DNA of 25,816 nucleotides from a virus: positions 1 through 25,816 of IMG/VR virus record IMGVR_UViG_3300017917_004041. The stretch is one strand, 5' to 3'. The notes beneath the pieces were generated by a model. It searched no databases. It was not told where the DNA came from and was given only the letters and a program-made list of their open reading frames with translations. A program made the position numbers and the translations under genes. Positions within the stretch are counted from its first letter, which is position 1; each line of letters opens with the position of its first letter. This document shows positions 6,443 through 23,556 of this stretch, in pieces.

Positions 6443-7855
6443 ATGGCAAGTATCATACACAATACAGGCACTAACAATACACTGTATTACAATATTTTAG
6501 ACTACTTTAGAACGATTATGGATAACCACCCATCAATCGAAGTAGTTACGCAAGGAGATATTAGTGATATAGATACAAGAGAATACCCAGCATATCCTTT
6601 GGGTAATGTAAATATATTAGGTTCTACATTCGGTATAAACTATACTGATTGGAGTGTTCAACTTATTATAGCGGACAAGATAAAAAATAAAAACAATGAG
6701 AGTGGAGATAGAACTAATGCACAGACTATTCCTTTCTATGGAGTAGATGATGTAGTTGATATTCACGCCAACACTCTCGCTATTGTAAATGATTTAACTT
6801 CTTATACACAAAGAAGTGTAGATGGATTTGAGATTAACGAAGATATTATCTGTGAACCATTTATGGACAGATTTAATAATGGGTTAGCAGGATGGGCTGC
6901 AACGTTTACTTTAACTGTACATAACGATAGAAACAGATGTCTTTTTGATTTATTTCCAGTTGCAGTAGAAAGTGGCTCAACAACCACTACTACAACTGCA
7001 GGACCTACTACAACTACAACTGCAGGACCTACTACTACAACAACAGCAGGACCTACTACGACTACTACTACATTAGCACCAACTACAACAACTACAACTA
7101 CTGCTGGTCCAACTACTACAACAACTACATTGGCTCCAACTACTACGACTACAACAACAATAGCACCTGGTACAGTTTGTTATCCATCTGCATCATTTAT
7201 AGTATCATCTGCTGAACCTGGTAATTTAGTTTATGGTTATAATGAATGTGATGGGACATATGTTCAAATAGCAATTGGTACATTTGATACAAGTATGAGT
7301 ATAAATTTAGATGCATGTTTTATTTCTGGTACTATTGTAGGTGTTGAAGGTGATACTATTTCAAATATTCAAATTTCAGGAAGTAGTTGTGGAACATATA
7401 CACCAACAACTACAACTACTACTACAACACTTGCTCCTAACACATTCTATTATGTAGTTGAAGGTGGAGAAAGTAGTGGTGGTGTATTAACATATAAAAA
7501 TCAAAATGGTAATTTTATAACTCAAAGTTTAGCTTCTGGTGAAACAGTTTTAATTGGAGTTATGGATAATGATATTGGTATAACCGGAGCAGGTTCTCAA
7601 ATATTTAATTCTGATATACCGTATGGTACTTCTTATACACCATCATCAAATTGTACAGCGTATGATATAACAAATAATAATGTTGGTACCGGTGGAGATA
7701 TTGTAGTATTCTATGTACCTTGCAATAGTTCATCTATATCATATAAATTTGTAGATACAGGTACAACAGATACAATGTGTGCATCTTATACAGGTTCAAT
7801 TGTAATTAAGAATTCACCTACTAATGTTGTATTAACACCTACTGGCACTTGTTAA
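6443..7855 (+). CDS. Tail-completion-like protein with Thr-rich linkers and surface modules
   Basis: The first about 178 of 470 residues look like a neck or tail-terminator protein (NTLYYNILDYFRTIMDNHPSI, then YPAYPLGNV, DWSVQLIIADK and a C-terminal WAATFTLTVHNDRNRC). The rest is not expected in that family. A Thr-rich linker of TTTTTAGP and TTTTTTLAP units (bases 6979-7170) leads to a module of about 78 residues with Cys pairs. A second short linker (7399-7440) leads to a C-terminal module of about 138 residues ending in a terminal Cys (VVLTPTGTC). The same linker type occurs in the gene at 11577. A natural reading is that exposed beta-sandwich modules hang from the neck by rigid mucin-like stalks, possibly binding cells or glycans. 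The fusion point is clear from composition; the role is inferred. Confidence 0.6.
   Translation: MASIIHNTGTNNTLYYNILDYFRTIMDNHPSIEVVTQGDISDIDTREYPAYPLGNVNILGSTFGINYTDWSVQLIIADKIKNKNNESGDRTNAQTIPFYGVDDVVDIHANTLAIVNDLTSYTQRSVDGFEINEDIICEPFMDRFNNGLAGWAATFTLTVHNDRNRCLFDLFPVAVESGSTTTTTTAGPTTTTTAGPTTTTTAGPTTTTTTLAPTTTTTTTAGPTTTTTTLAPTTTTTTTIAPGTVCYPSASFIVSSAEPGNLVYGYNECDGTYVQIAIGTFDTSMSINLDACFISGTIVGVEGDTISNIQISGSSCGTYTPTTTTTTTTLAPNTFYYVVEGGESSGGVLTYKNQNGNFITQSLASGETVLIGVMDNDIGITGAGSQIFNSDIPYGTSYTPSSNCTAYDITNNNVGTGGDIVVFYVPCNSSSISYKFVDTGTTDTMCASYTGSIVIKNSPTNVVLTPTGTC
6979..7170 (+). repeat. Thr-rich linker repeat region
   Basis: Six short units of five to seven Thr followed by AGP, LAP or IAP are encoded in tandem within the tail-completion-like protein. 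Thr codons alternate irregularly between ACA, ACT, ACG and ACC, so the protein repeat is far more regular than the DNA repeat. Confidence 0.85.
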
Positions 7856-11576: not shown

Positions 11577-13538
11577 ATGGCATACAGTGCAATATACATA
11601 CCTACATTTATTAGTTCGGTAACTTACCAACCAGCTAGAGTTCTGCCACATATTTATTTTTACAATGGAACAAGAGAAACTGATACATGGTATTTGGAAG
11701 GGTTTAATACAAACTCTACTTCTTCCGTTAGAGTTCATCCTTCTACTATATTCCCTTATTTTGACAATTATAGTGGAAACACACCTACTACTTCATCACT
11801 TTCATTATTATTTAATAACGAAGCCGCAGTATATGGTGAAGCACCTACTGCATCTTTATATCAGACATATTGGGAAACCTATGTGTCTTTACTTTATAAC
11901 CCAAAAACGAGATTATTAAATTGTTCTGCAATAATTCCTCTTGCTGACTATTTTAAGATGGAATTGAATGATATAGTTAATTTTAGAGGAAACTATTATC
12001 ATTTAAGAGCAATAAACGATTATAACTTATCAACAGGTGAATGTAATTTACAGTTGTTAGGACCAATAATTAAAGGTACATTAGATGGAAGTATTGTTCC
12101 ACCTGGACCTACTACAACTACAACTACTACAACAGCAGCACCAACTACTACAACTACTCTTGCTCCTACAACTACGACAACGAGTACAACGAGTACAACT
12201 ACTACTGCTGCACCTACAACAACAACTACATCTACTACAACAACACTTGCTCCTACTACTACAACTACGACAAGTACAACTACAACGGCTGCTCCAACAA
12301 CTACAACCACAACGAGTACAACAACTACAAGTACTACGACTACAACTGCTGCACCTACTACTACAACCACAACTACAACTTATATCACTAAATATTTAGT
12401 TGAGTTATGTGGAGGTGGAATTGGTCCATATATCGTAACTTTAGGTAGTGGTGATACTCCATCAGGAATTGGACAAGCATTTAAGATAAGTGGTAATTCA
12501 GGTGCTGGATTTAATGGTACTAACTGTTGGGAAGTTTTAGAAATTGACCCAATTGGAAATGTTGATTACGCAAACCTTGCATTTGGTTCTGTATTTAGTA
12601 ACTGTACTGATTGTAATAATACAAATACAACTACAACTACATCTACAACATCTACAACTACGACAACAGCGGCTCCAACAACCACTACGACAACAAGTAC
12701 TACGACTACTACAACCACTGCTGCACCTACAACCACAACAACTACAACTGCAGCACCAACTGTATATGCATGGGATGCAACTGTGGTAGATAATACATCA
12801 CACTCATCAAGCTGTACTTTACCGTACACTACAACTTATTATACAACAACTAACGTTCCAATTCTGAATACAACTATAATTTATTTAGACTCGGCATTAA
12901 CTACAACGTTAAATGGTGGTGATGGATTTGTTAAGATGAAGAGAACAGGTATTACAAATGAATATTCAGTAAGAGTTAATTCATCTGGTTTAGTGACAAG
13001 AGTAACAGTTTGTCCTGTTACAACTACAACTACATCTACGACAAGTACAACAACTACGACAACAACTACTACGGCTGCACCTACGACTACAACAACGACT
13101 ACAACCGTTGCACCAACTACTACAACAACTGCAGCACCAACTATTTATTATGTATCTGCTGATGATGTATATGAAGGAGCATTTGATGTAAACTGTTTAG
13201 GAGTTGATTATTATGGTGGATTAGTTGTTTATAGATTAGTTGCAACACTTAAAGATGGTTCAGGAAATACAATAACTAACTCAACCGGAACACCGATATA
13301 CACTAATGTTAATTTTGAAACAAATCCTTGCTTTGGTGGAACATCAACCGGTTCAGTACAAATTACAATACCAACAGGAGGACAGACTGGTTCATATACA
13401 TACTACTCACAAAACGTAGTAGATTGTGGAACTTCAGTTTGTGCATACGAATACGAAACAGCATTATGTGTAACATCATTGAGTGGTAGTGGATTAACAT
13501 TACAAATCGCAAGCGGTTCAGATTATACTTATTGTTAA
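11577..13538 (+). CDS. Tail hub C-terminal part fused to Thr-rich stalk and modules
   Basis: The first about 165 of 653 residues (PHIYFYNG, TIFPYFDNYSG, LYNPKTRLLNCSAIIPL, NFRGNYYHLRAINDYNLSTG) look like the C-terminal domain normally found at the end of a Bacteroidota phage hub protein, not like a fibre start. Then come three Thr-rich stalks (12111-12380, 12621-12761, 13018-13140) made of T runs broken by AAP, LAP, VAP and single Ser. They separate three compact modules with Cys residues. The second module has a YLDSALTTTLNGGDGF segment known to me from other phage appendages. The last module is a relative of the end of the upstream protein and ends in Cys. The architecture suggests a beaded, exposed and possibly glycosylated receptor-binding structure at the tail tip. 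The receptor is unknown. Confidence 0.66.
   Translation: MAYSAIYIPTFISSVTYQPARVLPHIYFYNGTRETDTWYLEGFNTNSTSSVRVHPSTIFPYFDNYSGNTPTTSSLSLLFNNEAAVYGEAPTASLYQTYWETYVSLLYNPKTRLLNCSAIIPLADYFKMELNDIVNFRGNYYHLRAINDYNLSTGECNLQLLGPIIKGTLDGSIVPPGPTTTTTTTTAAPTTTTTLAPTTTTTSTTSTTTTAAPTTTTTSTTTTLAPTTTTTTSTTTTAAPTTTTTTSTTTTSTTTTTAAPTTTTTTTTYITKYLVELCGGGIGPYIVTLGSGDTPSGIGQAFKISGNSGAGFNGTNCWEVLEIDPIGNVDYANLAFGSVFSNCTDCNNTNTTTTTSTTSTTTTTAAPTTTTTTSTTTTTTTAAPTTTTTTTAAPTVYAWDATVVDNTSHSSSCTLPYTTTYYTTTNVPILNTTIIYLDSALTTTLNGGDGFVKMKRTGITNEYSVRVNSSGLVTRVTVCPVTTTTTSTTSTTTTTTTTTAAPTTTTTTTTVAPTTTTTAAPTIYYVSADDVYEGAFDVNCLGVDYYGGLVVYRLVATLKDGSGNTITNSTGTPIYTNVNFETNPCFGGTSTGSVQITIPTGGQTGSYTYYSQNVVDCGTSVCAYEYETALCVTSLSGSGLTLQIASGSDYTYC
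12111..12380 (+). repeat. Long Thr-rich linker repeat region
   Basis: About 90 residues of almost pure Thr, broken by AAP or LAP every 5-15 residues and occasional single Ser. This is the longest stalk in the window. Related tracts in the same gene lie at 12621-12761 and 13018-13140. Synonymous Thr codons are mixed throughout. Confidence 0.85.
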
Positions 13539-20028: not shown

Positions 20029-20086
20029 AGAATAATACATACTTATTGAGGTAAGTGATAACTTATTGATGAAATGTTTAGAGTAG

Positions 20087-20122
20087 AACCCAGAGTGTTG
20101 AAAAATATTCTGGGTTTTTTTT
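20087..20122 (+). terminator. Intrinsic terminator ending the late structural block
   Basis: An 8-bp stem (AACCCAGA at 20087-20094 with TCTGGGTT at 20109-20116) with a 14-base loop is followed by eight T. It closes the long + strand transcript that includes tape measure, protease and small genes. Bases 20123-20174 hold only T- and A-rich sequence before the next promoter. Confidence 0.85.
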
Positions 20123-20174: not shown

Positions 20175-20206
20175 TTTGGATATATGAAATATTTTTCGTA
20201 TATTTG
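20175..20206 (+). promoter_or_regulatory. Bacteroidota-type promoter for the structured leader
   Basis: TTTG at 20175-20178, a 20-base spacer and TATATTTG at 20199-20206, an exact TAnnTTTG box. Transcription would start near 20212, giving a leader of about 120 bases before the ATG at 20336. This is the best promoter match in the window. Confidence 0.75.
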
Positions 20207-20228
20207 ATGTAATCAAAAAGAAAATTAT

Positions 20229-20326
20229 ATCCGCCGTAATCGGATTTTATTAAAATTATAGACATTTGGGATTTTTTATTCTGTTAGAAAATATTACGGG
20301 TTTTCTTTCAGTCTAATCAATCCCAA
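20229..20326 (+). ncRNA. Structured 5' leader with complementary hairpin loops
   Basis: Hairpin I has a 5-bp stem (ATCCG 20229-20233 with CGGAT 20241-20245) and a seven-base loop CCGTAAT. Hairpin II has an outer 8-bp stem (TTGGGATT 20266-20273 with AATCCCAA 20319-20326). Its inner stem is CTG then AGAAAA (281-283, 286-291) paired with TTTTCT then CAG (301-306, 309-311), with a TT/TT internal loop. Its apical loop TATTACGGG (20292-20300) contains ATTACGG, the exact complement of the loop of hairpin I. All seven loop bases can thus pair, as a kissing interaction. It lies between a good promoter and the start codon at 20336. I do not match it to a named riboswitch or ribozyme. A regulatory leader for the downstream operon is the simplest reading. 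Confidence 0.6.
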
Positions 20327-20335
20327 TTTTATTTT

Positions 20336-20662
20336 ATGGAAATAACACAAGGAATTGATAACTTGATTAACAAGTATCAAAATTATGAAGGTTCTGCATC
20401 CTTTATCTATGCATGTATGTATTCTCTTGGTGAATTTAGAGATACAAAATTTGTCAAAACATTTATCAACAACACATTTACTTACAATCATATTGATAAA
20501 ATAAATGATGTAGTTTGCAAACAATTATCTTCTCATTGGAAAAATGTTGCAATTAGTAAATTTGAAAAGCAAGATTATTCTGGCTATTACTACGCATTAC
20601 TTACTTCTACTAATTTTAGAATTGTAGCAGATTATTTAGAAAACAATAAATTTAATTCCTAA
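20336..20662 (+). CDS. Unknown 108-residue protein under the structured leader
   Basis: I do not recognise this protein. It is soluble and mostly helical, with aromatic-rich stretches (FIYACMYSLGEF, HIDKINDVVCKQLSSHWKN, YSGYYYALLTS). It has two Cys and no membrane segment or known motif. It is the first gene after the promoter at 20175 and the kissing-loop leader, whose 3' stem ends nine bases before the ATG. Its translation is therefore the likely target of any leader-mediated control. The next gene follows after 14 bases. The early/replication-like position is suggested by the DUF6291-like neighbour. Confidence 0.6.
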   Translation: MEITQGIDNLINKYQNYEGSASFIYACMYSLGEFRDTKFVKTFINNTFTYNHIDKINDVVCKQLSSHWKNVAISKFEKQDYSGYYYALLTSTNFRIVADYLENNKFNS

Positions 20663-20676
20663 TAGAATATCTTATT

Positions 20677-21162
20677 ATGAAAACTGAAAAAGCATCATGG
20701 ATATTCTTTCAAAGTTGGGAGAAATCAGTAAATTTACTTACATTAGAAGAAAGAGGTAAGTTATTAACAAATTTAATAAATCATCATAAAGGATTAGAAG
20801 TTGTAAACGATACGCCAATGCTAGAAATGTTTTGGAATTCAATTGAATACACTTTAGATAGAAATACTAAAAGATATTTAGCATCAGTTGAAAATGGTAA
20901 AAAAGGAGGAGCACCAAAAGGTAATCAGAATGCTCTTAAACAAAATAAAAACAACCTAAATCAACCTAAAAACAACCAAACTCAATCAAAAAACAACCTT
21001 TATGATAATGATAATGATAATGATAATGATAATGATAATGTAAATGATAATGATAATATAGCTAAAAGTAGACTGCAATTTAATACTTTACCAATGCCAA
21101 ATTATAAACCTGATGAAGTAATTGAATATTGGGAAAGTGTTAAATCTGAAATTGATAAATAA
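20677..21162 (+). CDS. DUF6291-like replication-associated protein
   Basis: The first about 80 of 161 residues fit the DUF6291 type found in phage and prophage replication regions: WIFFQSWEKSVNLLTLEERGKLLTNLINHHKG, then FWNSIEYTLDRNTKRYLASVENGKKGGAPKG. The C-terminal half is low-complexity: Asn/Lys/Gln-rich and then an Asp-Asn repeat encoded by GATAAT units (about 21004-21058). The last 25 residues (LPMPNYKPDEVIEYWESVKSEIDK) form a short ordered end. Proteins of this type are thought to act at replication initiation, but the function is unproven. The sequence is directly followed by the promoter of the candidate small RNA, whose upstream box begins one base after the stop. Confidence 0.65.
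   Translation: MKTEKASWIFFQSWEKSVNLLTLEERGKLLTNLINHHKGLEVVNDTPMLEMFWNSIEYTLDRNTKRYLASVENGKKGGAPKGNQNALKQNKNNLNQPKNNQTQSKNNLYDNDNDNDNDNDNVNDNDNIAKSRLQFNTLPMPNYKPDEVIEYWESVKSEIDK
21004..21058 (+). repeat. GATAAT hexamer repeat inside the DUF6291-like gene
   Basis: Tandem GATAAT units, with one variant unit (GTAAAT), encode an alternating Asp-Asn tract. Unit length is a multiple of three, so copy number changes would alter tract length without shifting frame. Confidence 0.8.
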
Positions 21163-21194
21163 TTTGGAAATATTAAATAATTTCAGTATATTAG
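21163..21194 (+). promoter_or_regulatory. Bacteroidota-type promoter for the candidate small RNA
   Basis: TTTG at 21163-21166, a 20-base spacer and TATATTAG at 21187-21194. Both boxes and the spacer length are identical to the promoter before the GIY-YIG gene at 3806. Expected start is near 21200, about 145 bases before the terminator run. Confidence 0.65.
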
Positions 21195-21199
21195 TAAAA

Positions 21200-21343
21200 C
21201 AAAACAAAAATAGTATGTTATTATTCAGTAAGAAATTAAAAAATACTCAATCTATTATTACTGCACTCATATTGAGTTTTCTTACTACATACTATTTTAG
21301 CCAGAAGCGTTTACTGCCATTTTCGCTTCTGGCTTTTTTTTTT
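21200..21343 (+). ncRNA. Candidate small RNA with two hairpins
   Basis: A compact transcription unit lies between a good promoter and a strong terminator. The first hairpin pairs AGTAAGAAA (21227-21235) with TTTCTTACT (21278-21286). An inner stem ACTCAAT (21245-21251) with ATTGAGT (21271-21277) stacks directly on it on the 3' side, leaving a nine-base bulge on the 5' side and a 19-base loop. The second hairpin is the terminator. An ORF from ATG 21214 runs through the terminator without stopping until 21394 and encodes a Phe/Leu-rich string with no family resemblance, so I favour a non-coding RNA. A small hydrophobic peptide cannot be excluded. Targets are unknown. The 5' end is estimated from the promoter. 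Confidence 0.5.
21299..21343 (+). terminator. Strong intrinsic terminator
   Basis: An 11-bp perfect stem (AGCCAGAAGCG at 21299-21309 with CGCTTCTGGCT at 21324-21334), a 14-base loop and ten consecutive T. It is the most stable terminator in the window and isolates the upstream unit from the endonuclease gene. Confidence 0.92.
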
Positions 21344-21433
21344 CAATTATTTTCACTTTTTTTTACGTTTGGGAAAACTTTATTATATTTATAGTAAAGT
21401 AAATAATTAAATGGCAAACTAAACTTTATTAAA

Positions 21434-21793
21434 ATGGCACACAAAGAAGAATTAAAACAGATTGAGGGATTTGAAAACTATTATGTATCTGATACAGGTA
21501 ACATATATTCCTCACACAGAATTCAAAATGGTGAATACAAATTAGTAAAACCATCAAAGAACAAATCAGGTTATCTTTACGCAAACATCTTCTCATCACC
21601 ACAAAAGAGAAGTTCACTCCGTATTCACAGATTAGTATATCAGGCATTTGTAGGATGCATTCCTGAAGGATTTGTTATTGACCATAAAAATGGTGATAAA
21701 AAGGATAACAGAATAGAAAACTTACAGATACTAACACCGCAAGAGAATACATTAAAATATCACAGAATTGACAAACAAAGAAAAAGAAACTGA
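21434..21793 (+). CDS. NUMOD4-HNH homing-type endonuclease
   Basis: A 119-residue protein with the NUMOD4 motif at the N-terminus (IEGFENYYVSDTGNIYSSHR, about 10-29) followed by an HNH_3-type nuclease: GYLYANIF, RIHRLVYQAFVG (His65), then FVIDHKNGDKKDNRIENLQIL (about 80-100) with the Asp-His, Asn and Asn-Leu signature. Such free-standing genes are mobile and home into related phages. It follows a strong terminator and has an AT-rich upstream region; a possible TTTG box at 21368 lacks a convincing second box at the right distance. A near-copy of the start region lies just upstream (21411). Family assignment is confident; homing activity is inferred. Confidence 0.87.
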   Translation: MAHKEELKQIEGFENYYVSDTGNIYSSHRIQNGEYKLVKPSKNKSGYLYANIFSSPQKRSSLRIHRLVYQAFVGCIPEGFVIDHKNGDKKDNRIENLQILTPQENTLKYHRIDKQRKRN

Positions 21794-22735: not shown

Positions 22736-22996
22736 ATGGAAGTAACAACAGTGACAACGTTACCGTTTGTAGATGATAAGTACTCTCCCCTAACAACTCC
22801 ACAGTATTTAGAGTTAAAGGATTTCTTAACCAATTTAGGACATACTCTACCAACGGATAAATTATCGTATGTATGGAACAACTACAATGCGGTAAGAGGA
22901 ATGAAAGAAAAACAACCCTGTGGATGCGGTTCGGCAGCTGGAATGTGGAAAAGAGCAGTTGATGAATTAAATGCTTGGGTAAAAGAGAGAGAGTAA
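22736..22996 (+). CDS. Small protein with CGCGS motif
   Basis: An 86-residue protein with a conserved-looking C-terminal part (KQPCGCGSAAGMWKRAVDELNAWVKE). The C-x-C followed by a Trp-containing helix is seen in other small Bacteroidota phage proteins, and two close Cys residues could bind metal or be part of a shared site with a partner. The N-terminal part (LTTPQYLELKDFLTNLGHTLPTDKLSYVWNNYN) is helical. The stop overlaps the next ATG by one base (TAATG), coupling it to the sigma-like gene. Function unknown. Confidence 0.58.
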   Translation: MEVTTVTTLPFVDDKYSPLTTPQYLELKDFLTNLGHTLPTDKLSYVWNNYNAVRGMKEKQPCGCGSAAGMWKRAVDELNAWVKERE

Positions 22997-23556
22997 TGGA
23001 AAGAAGTGGAAGTGTATTGATAACGGAATGTGAAGGTAGATTGACACAACTGTGTTTACAATCCCACCAATGGTTATTAAATGTTGCACAACACATATCT
23101 GGCACGAGAGAAAACGCTGAAGATTTAGTAAGTGAGTTATACGAATACCTACACATTAAATGTAATCCAAAGATATTTTGGGGAAACTCTTACAACATAA
23201 TGTATTGCTCAAAGTTTCTAAAGCATAGATGGATAAACAAAACAAAGAAGTTAAACAAACTCACCTATGTAGAAGAAATATGGGATAACGAATTGGACAT
23301 ACCTTATGATGAAGATAAGGATAGAAGATTAGAAGAAGCGCATACTAAAGTACTATGTGAATTAAAAACATTACAGAAGACGAAGATGTGGCCATCAGCA
23401 AGAATATTTGAACTCTATTATATGAGTGATAAAACATTAGATAAAGTAGCGTGTGATATAGGAATAAGTAAATCAACTACATTCCTCGCAGTTAAAAAGA
23501 TAAGAAGATATTTACAAAGAGAAATCCAAAATCCATTTGAAGAAAAAGAGTTATGA
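22996..23556 (+). CDS. Sigma-70-like factor or related HTH protein
   Basis: I choose ATG 22996 (TAATG junction) over ATG 22975, giving 186 residues. About residues 35-80 (ISGTRENAEDLVSELYEYL, then NIMYCSKFLKHRWINK) resemble region 2 of small sigma factors, with the acidic 'EDLV-E-Y' helix and the basic helix. Residues 136-175 (RIFELYYMSDKTLDKVACDIGISKSTTFLAVKKIRRYL) are a clear region-4-like helix-turn-helix. The acidic linker (WDNELDIPYDEDKD) separates them. Small phage sigma-like proteins often switch on late genes. The sequence is divergent, so a terminase-small-subunit-like or other HTH protein remains possible. It overlaps the next gene by four bases (ATGA). Confidence 0.55.
   Translation: MERSGSVLITECEGRLTQLCLQSHQWLLNVAQHISGTRENAEDLVSELYEYLHIKCNPKIFWGNSYNIMYCSKFLKHRWINKTKKLNKLTYVEEIWDNELDIPYDEDKDRRLEEAHTKVLCELKTLQKTKMWPSARIFELYYMSDKTLDKVACDIGISKSTTFLAVKKIRRYLQREIQNPFEEKEL

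Follow-up and report, generated by a model that had tools for sequence, protein, structure and literature searches.

A kissing-loop leader RNA and probable transcription attenuator before replication genes of uncultivated Bacteroidota-type phages

Short RNAs derived from leaders serve as immunity RNAs in phages P4 (CI) and P1 (c4), where they pair so as to stop transcription of an operon of the phage, and where their sequence specificity changes from phage to phage. Kissing of leader loops has a tested precedent in the corrinoid (cobalamin) riboswitch, in which an upstream loop (L5) kisses the loop of the expression-platform hairpin (L13) and, in transcriptional members, steers terminator formation (PMC10653944). 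Long-range loop pairing also occurs in the pseudoknots of plasmid rep genes. These elements (ColIb-P9 repZ, IncL/M repA; cited in PMC10724649) control translation, differ in loop specificity among relatives and are opposed by an antisense RNA transcribed from the other strand. In pT181-type rep attenuators (Novick 1989, cited in PMC10724649), a terminator hairpin lies just before the replication gene and is induced by a countertranscript. The prohead RNA of phage phi29, about 120 nt long, has two hairpins with complementary loops, which kiss between molecules by 4 bp in the packaging motor (PMC7357161).

Here, we describe a phage leader RNA that resembles each of these systems in part. As in the corrinoid riboswitch, an upstream loop matches the loop of a downstream hairpin; however, the leader loops pair along their whole length (6-8 bp) and differ widely among phages, whereas the riboswitch has a conserved L5 consensus, and the kissing partner is itself a terminator-like hairpin that precedes phage replication genes. 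The Rfam model of the corrinoid riboswitch recognised no B12 box or aptamer core in the leaders. Loop specificity varies as in the plasmid pseudoknots, but the leader hairpin is terminator-like and no conserved antisense promoter was found. The placement of the hairpin recalls pT181, but no countertranscript is evident here, and the leader is defined by its loop-loop match with an upstream hairpin. The size and the presence of two complementary loops recall the phi29 RNA, but the leader pairs over 6-8 bp, belongs to a replication mRNA and has a terminator-like end. None of the nearest ideas (corrinoid kissing loop, plasmid rep pseudoknots and attenuators, phi29 pRNA) shares all features of the leader. 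The literature that we searched does not describe a phage RNA of this kind. With Rfam 15, no family reached the gathering score for any member tested, and permissive scans of the leaders gave chance-level matches only; the original prediction had likewise matched it to no known riboswitch.

The window, which is the whole stretch of DNA analysed, is a complete IMG/VR virus record of 25,816 bases. Its large terminase shares 53-80% identity with relatives in uncultivated viral contigs and about 37-38% with the terminases of Bacteroides and Phocaeicola phages. The terminase search found no relative in 84,980 bacterial and archaeal genomes, and the linker pattern described below likewise found no prophage relatives in bacterial genomes. 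Searches of plasmids and a direct search of cultured phages for DNA similar to the leader region also found none, and no integrase was noted in the window. Threonine-rich repeats (TTTTTAAPTTTTT) occur in two large structural-gene ORFs (about 6990-7250 and 12100-13250), where they probably link domains. A 193-aa ORF (22975-23556) has weak sigma-factor-like similarity (PHROG 1740, E 0.002; Pfam Sigma70_r2, E 0.03), is kept in relatives and is possibly a phage transcription factor.

The leader transcription unit, on the plus strand, begins 3' of the strong intrinsic terminator of the upstream late operon (20085-20118, a 15-pair stem followed by a T-run). A conserved late-operon 3' element of the form AATAGGTTACAACCTAATTTTAAGA ... 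ATACCAAATCGGA ... terminator, distinct from the leader RNA, was seen in L098:905-1030, L031:1520-1665 and L036:5215-5335. The promoter is of the Bacteroidota type, TTTG-N20-TATATTTG (20175-20206), with TTTG at 20175-20178, 20 nt upstream of TATATTTG, in the Bacteroidota -33/-7 pattern; similar promoter DNA recurs in relatives. We infer that the transcript starts at about 20212.

Hairpin I (20229-20245) is formed by ATCCG (20229-20233) and CGGAT (20241-20245) around the 7-nt loop CCGTAAT (20234-20240). The linker (20246-20265) carries a weak TTT/AAA mini-hairpin (20246-20248/20252-20254), which may be the counterpart of a conserved middle hairpin in relatives, although its pairing is unsupported in the window. 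Hairpin II (20266-20326) has an outer stem (20266-20273/20319-20326), an inner stem in two parts (20281-20283/20309-20311 and 20286-20292/20300-20306) and the loop ATTACGG (20293-20299). Homologous hairpins to both exist in relatives. A terminator-like U-tract, UUUUAUUUU (20327-20335), lies between hairpin II and the start codon at 20336, nine bases past the stem, and is placed in the same way in relatives. The original prediction had located the end of TATATTTG at 20206, the outer stem, both loops and the start codon correctly, and the loops are exact reverse complements as it claimed. The inner stem that it drew at 20281-20291/20301-20311 is present, but it is interrupted by a 2x2 U-U mismatch (20284-20285/20307-20308) and extended by a U-G pair (20292/20300). 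Two points had escaped the prediction: together with its U-tract, hairpin II resembles an intrinsic terminator placed immediately ahead of the start codon, and the operon is a replication operon.

The minimum free energy fold of the transcript 20212-20335 contains exactly hairpins I and II, with pair probabilities of 0.73-0.84 in hairpin I and mostly >0.94 in hairpin II. An alternative pairing of AAAGAAAA (20217-20224) with TTTTCTTT (20301-20308) was rejected because it would open the supported hairpin II. The folding energy alone of the window leader is not remarkable (a fold that included part of the promoter region was mildly better than shuffles, z -1.9); the complementary loops are. Among 3000 dinucleotide-shuffled leaders, one gave two hairpins with a 7-bp loop-loop match containing at least 3 GC, and none of 20 shuffled versions of the window did so. 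A strict search on both strands of 104 unrelated phage loci, about 0.87 Mb in all, found no kissing layout. The long-range match of the loops thus exceeds chance. The exact loop pattern had one match in viral contigs, which was set aside as a chance match in GC-rich DNA.

In 80 terminase relatives, we looked for pairs of hairpins whose loops complement each other. The same layout was found with other loops in L002 (ATCGCAC/GTGCGAT), L015 (GTAGGAT/ATCCTAC) and L039 (GTGGTAG/CTACCAC). The linker common to L002 and L015 was used as a loop-free search pattern and returned 19 stretches, all of which contain hairpin I, the middle hairpin, hairpin II, a U-run and a start codon; promoter-like sequence lies upstream in all of them except L100, which is cut at its 5' end. 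The order in relatives is Bacteroidota-type promoter, hairpin I, small-hairpin linker, hairpin II, U-tract and start codon. A relaxed linker pattern returned mostly unrelated contigs, which served as negative controls.

The core family consists of L002, L015, L083-L100, L218, L039, L240, L286, L295, L304 and L341. Its loops are spaced by 55-62 nt; those of the window are spaced by 59 nt and paired at 7 of 7 positions. There are about 12 loop types, or 16 if distant and tentative members are counted, and the loops are fully complementary within each phage. When 14 types were compared, none of the 364 cross-type combinations paired over at least 6 bp. The distant candidates L207 (8 bp), L351, L357, L273 and L375 have the same plan, the last four being GC-richer; L273 and L375 are tentative members from a relaxed scan with a background of 0.5% per 1-kb chunk. 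MAFFT alignments misalign hairpin II of divergent members, so the elements of these members were compared one at a time.

The RNA is lacking in some phages whose terminases and replication genes are related, and therefore seems dispensable in the group: in L026, L031 and similar relatives, promoters are followed by short A-rich leaders in which no such RNA was found. Most contigs are fragments, and its absence in some relatives can be missing data. A match to the L015 leader in Elizabethkingia phage TCUEAP1 was rejected, as it covers promoter DNA only and the gene begins right after the promoter. In cultured Vibrio, Enterococcus, Porphyromonas and Pseudanabaena phages, the annotated upstream genes adjoin DUF4373-type genes closely, which would leave little or no room for such a leader.

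In an alignment of 10 distinct leaders, most of which came from the linker pattern excluding the loops, all 32 pairs of the kissing helix and the stems are standard in every sequence (100%). Two-sided changes were found in 14 of the 32 pairs (kissing helix 5/7, hairpin I 3/7, inner hairpin II 6/10), and pairing falls to 29-48% in slid controls with partners moved by 1-3 columns. L015 and L088 differ at 2 positions in 115 nt, A>T in loop I and T>A in loop II; these are kissing partners, and the changes compensate each other.

A covariance model, R1, was built without the kissing pairs; the E-values of such home-made models are rough. It matched L039 (36 bits, E 2e-5) and L218 in the contig of L005 (59.7 bits), and later L240, L286, L295, L304 and L341 (42-94 bits), and every one of these matches has complementary loops. 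A second model, R2, found L272 (59 bits), which has 6-nt/6-nt loops (GGTCAG/CTGACC). L357 was flagged by model first (E 0.003), and its loops GTTGCAG/CTGCAAC were recognised only afterwards. A second route used the downstream proteins only, by which 142 loci were fetched, 136 of them with enough upstream DNA. The kissing layout was present in 17 nonredundant leaders among the 136 loci, whereas none of 419 coding chunks had it and 3 of 710 shuffles did; one of the 17, L354, looks like a chance match within coding sequence. This route added the loops ATGCGAG/CTCGCAT, CTGACCA/TGGTCAG and GTAGGCT/AGCCTAC. Comparison across relatives demonstrates hairpins I and II and the kissing pair as predicted structures. 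A kissing-loop leader RNA under a Bacteroidota promoter had been proposed from the window alone, with the advice to search relatives for compensating changes; these were found in both stems and in the kissing helix, and they support the proposal.

Hairpin II of core relatives has a 10-bp inner stem, usually with a 3x3 internal loop, and an energy of about -18 to -26 kcal/mol. Its CCC(C)/GGG(G) outer stem and U5-7 are followed by the start codon, usually within 10-25 nt. By sequence it would be a classical intrinsic terminator, and termination itself is suggested by this anatomy. The short gap to the start codon leaves no room for a second promoter, so the downstream genes would be expressed only via read-through from the leader promoter.

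The genes that follow the RNA are of the Lin1244_N/DUF4373 type in L086, L083, L218 and L207, of the DUF6291 family in L084, and sub-threshold DUF1376-like in L098; those of L015, L094 and L085 have no Pfam match. The L207 protein has homologs in cultured phages whose annotation is replication initiation protein. Almost the same RNA stands ahead of unrelated proteins in L084 and L088, which indicates that it does not serve one downstream protein and disfavours autoregulation by that protein, one of three functions suggested earlier beside a ligand-driven and a temperature-driven switch. In the window, the first gene 3' of the leader is a 108-aa ORF (20336-20662, plus strand), an orphan for which no relatives were found. 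It separates the leader from a DUF6291 gene (20677-21162, plus strand), and L357 likewise has a small intervening gene. Because DUF6291 genes directly follow the RNA in L084 and L089, the DUF6291 gene is likely the replication-module gene of this locus. A TGATAA-type repeat within it (about 21000-21060) encodes an Asp-Asn run, the length of which is likely unstable.

A second probable noncoding RNA was observed at 21163-21345, with its own promoter and terminator and a fold z of -7.07. Its promoter, TTTG-N20-TATATTAG (21163-21194), is followed by a long hairpin (about 21207-21298) and a terminator (21299-21334) plus T-run. This RNA has no Rfam match and is kept in L020, L026, L079 and L098, where it occupies the gap from the replication-type gene to the gene that follows. 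Its terminator loop TGCCATTTT (21315-21323) complements the start region AAAATGGCA (21431-21439) of the following HNH gene, which is homing-endonuclease-like. Loop and start region co-vary in L019, L020, L028, L031, L008, L087, L212 and L328, for example TTTGTCATT with AATGACAAA, and over 11 nt TGCCATCGGTT with AACCGATGGCA in L087. A loop/start complement of at least 8 nt was found for 13 of 102 starts with an upstream terminator, against 1.1% in mismatched combinations. The terminator loop is a candidate for antisense control of homing-endonuclease-like genes.

For the leader RNA, we propose with moderate confidence that it is a cis-acting leader of the phage replication operon and acts as a kissing-loop transcription attenuator. 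This is the simplest reading, because hairpin II of relatives is terminator-like and the start codon follows it by 10-25 nt, too close for another promoter to fit; control of the downstream genes is likewise suggested by the anatomy. Transcription would start at about 20212, and hairpin I would fold first; when hairpin II follows, every base of its apical loop would pair with the loop of hairpin I. The terminator would consist of hairpin II and the U-tract, and polymerase would either stop at the U-tract, giving an RNA of about 120 nt, or read into the replication-module genes. Kissing during the emergence of hairpin II would set terminator folding, and hence the level of replication protein. 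The sign of control may go either way, as kissing could speed or hinder the closing of the terminator. No conserved anti-terminator pairing was found. Antisense control of the leader was considered and rejected since an opposite-strand (counter-transcript) promoter is not conserved: the window, L002, L015, L084 and L218 have no match, and one-mismatch promoter-like matches lie on the opposite strand in L083, L086, L099, L295, L304 and L341, and farther downstream in L207.

The terminated RNA (about 120 nt, early, kissing-stabilised) could itself be the functional molecule, while a little replication protein would be made by incidental read-through. It has its own promoter, a compact fold and a terminator-like end, and the fold is kept while the sequence drifts. 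We consider this rather unlikely, however, because the RNA recurs directly before replication-type genes and the gap is too short to hold a second promoter, which suggests control of these genes.

A post-transcriptional role, in which the RNA shields the 5' end from RNase or governs ribosome access as a stabiliser, thermosensor or translational switch, seems improbable to us. Hairpin II does end 9-25 nt before the start codon, and plasmid rep genes, ColIb-P9 repZ among them, have their translation controlled by leader-loop pseudoknots (cited in PMC10724649). However, core relatives keep the GC outer stem and U-run that are the hallmark of a terminator, relatives lacking the RNA are A-rich at the start, and no conserved pairing over the start codon was seen.

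It is very doubtful that the loops pair between molecules, so that the terminated leader is its own antisense in trans and controls copy number or excludes phages of its own loop type. The loops vary between phages, match within each and never cross-match between types, like specificity determinants; kissing loops serve antisense control and incompatibility in I-complex plasmids (PMC10724649) and oligomerise phi29 pRNA (PMC7357161). But the fairly constant loop spacing (55-62 nt, core) fits an intramolecular geometry, and compensated drift accounts equally for the loop diversity. If terminated leaders did pair with nascent leaders of the same phage, which we regard as a long shot, they would form a self-contained RNA dosage control with a private loop code. 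The lineage would then sense its own copy number, or exclude superinfection by the same type, with neither an antisense transcript nor a protein.

The attenuator reading was drawn largely from relatives, and the window copy differs from them. It scored 14.2 bits (R1) and 13.4 bits (R2) against the covariance models, which is not significant, and hairpin II was unaligned. Both models feature the conserved linker AAGAUAAC-GAAC..GUUC-AAAC and the 10-bp inner stem, and the window has neither. Hairpin I is just 5 bp long, and hairpin II contains internal mismatches. The outer stem shows the opposite G/C order and a single A breaks the U-tract, so the putative terminator is weaker than in relatives. 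The window keeps the loop match, spacing, promoter, U-tract and place of the relatives' leaders, with the promoter just upstream, the U-tract and start codon just downstream, and a replication-type operon starting there. On architecture, position and phage kinship, its copy should be called a divergent family member. That the loop match is chance and the leader an ordinary 5' UTR, as the poor family-model scores might suggest, is hardly credible, because the match has a p of about 1/3000 per leader and the spacing, promoter, U-tract and genomic place are the same as in relatives with covarying loops.

The leaders represent a new RNA family in uncultivated Bacteroidota-type phages, absent from Rfam and with strong covariation, and a probable attenuator located at the entry of the replication operons of these phages. 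Their kissing pair is an unusually clear natural one, retained through free sequence drift, and is thus suited to measuring loop-loop effects on termination. Because the same RNA stands ahead of replication genes of unrelated types, it may be a portable control cassette.
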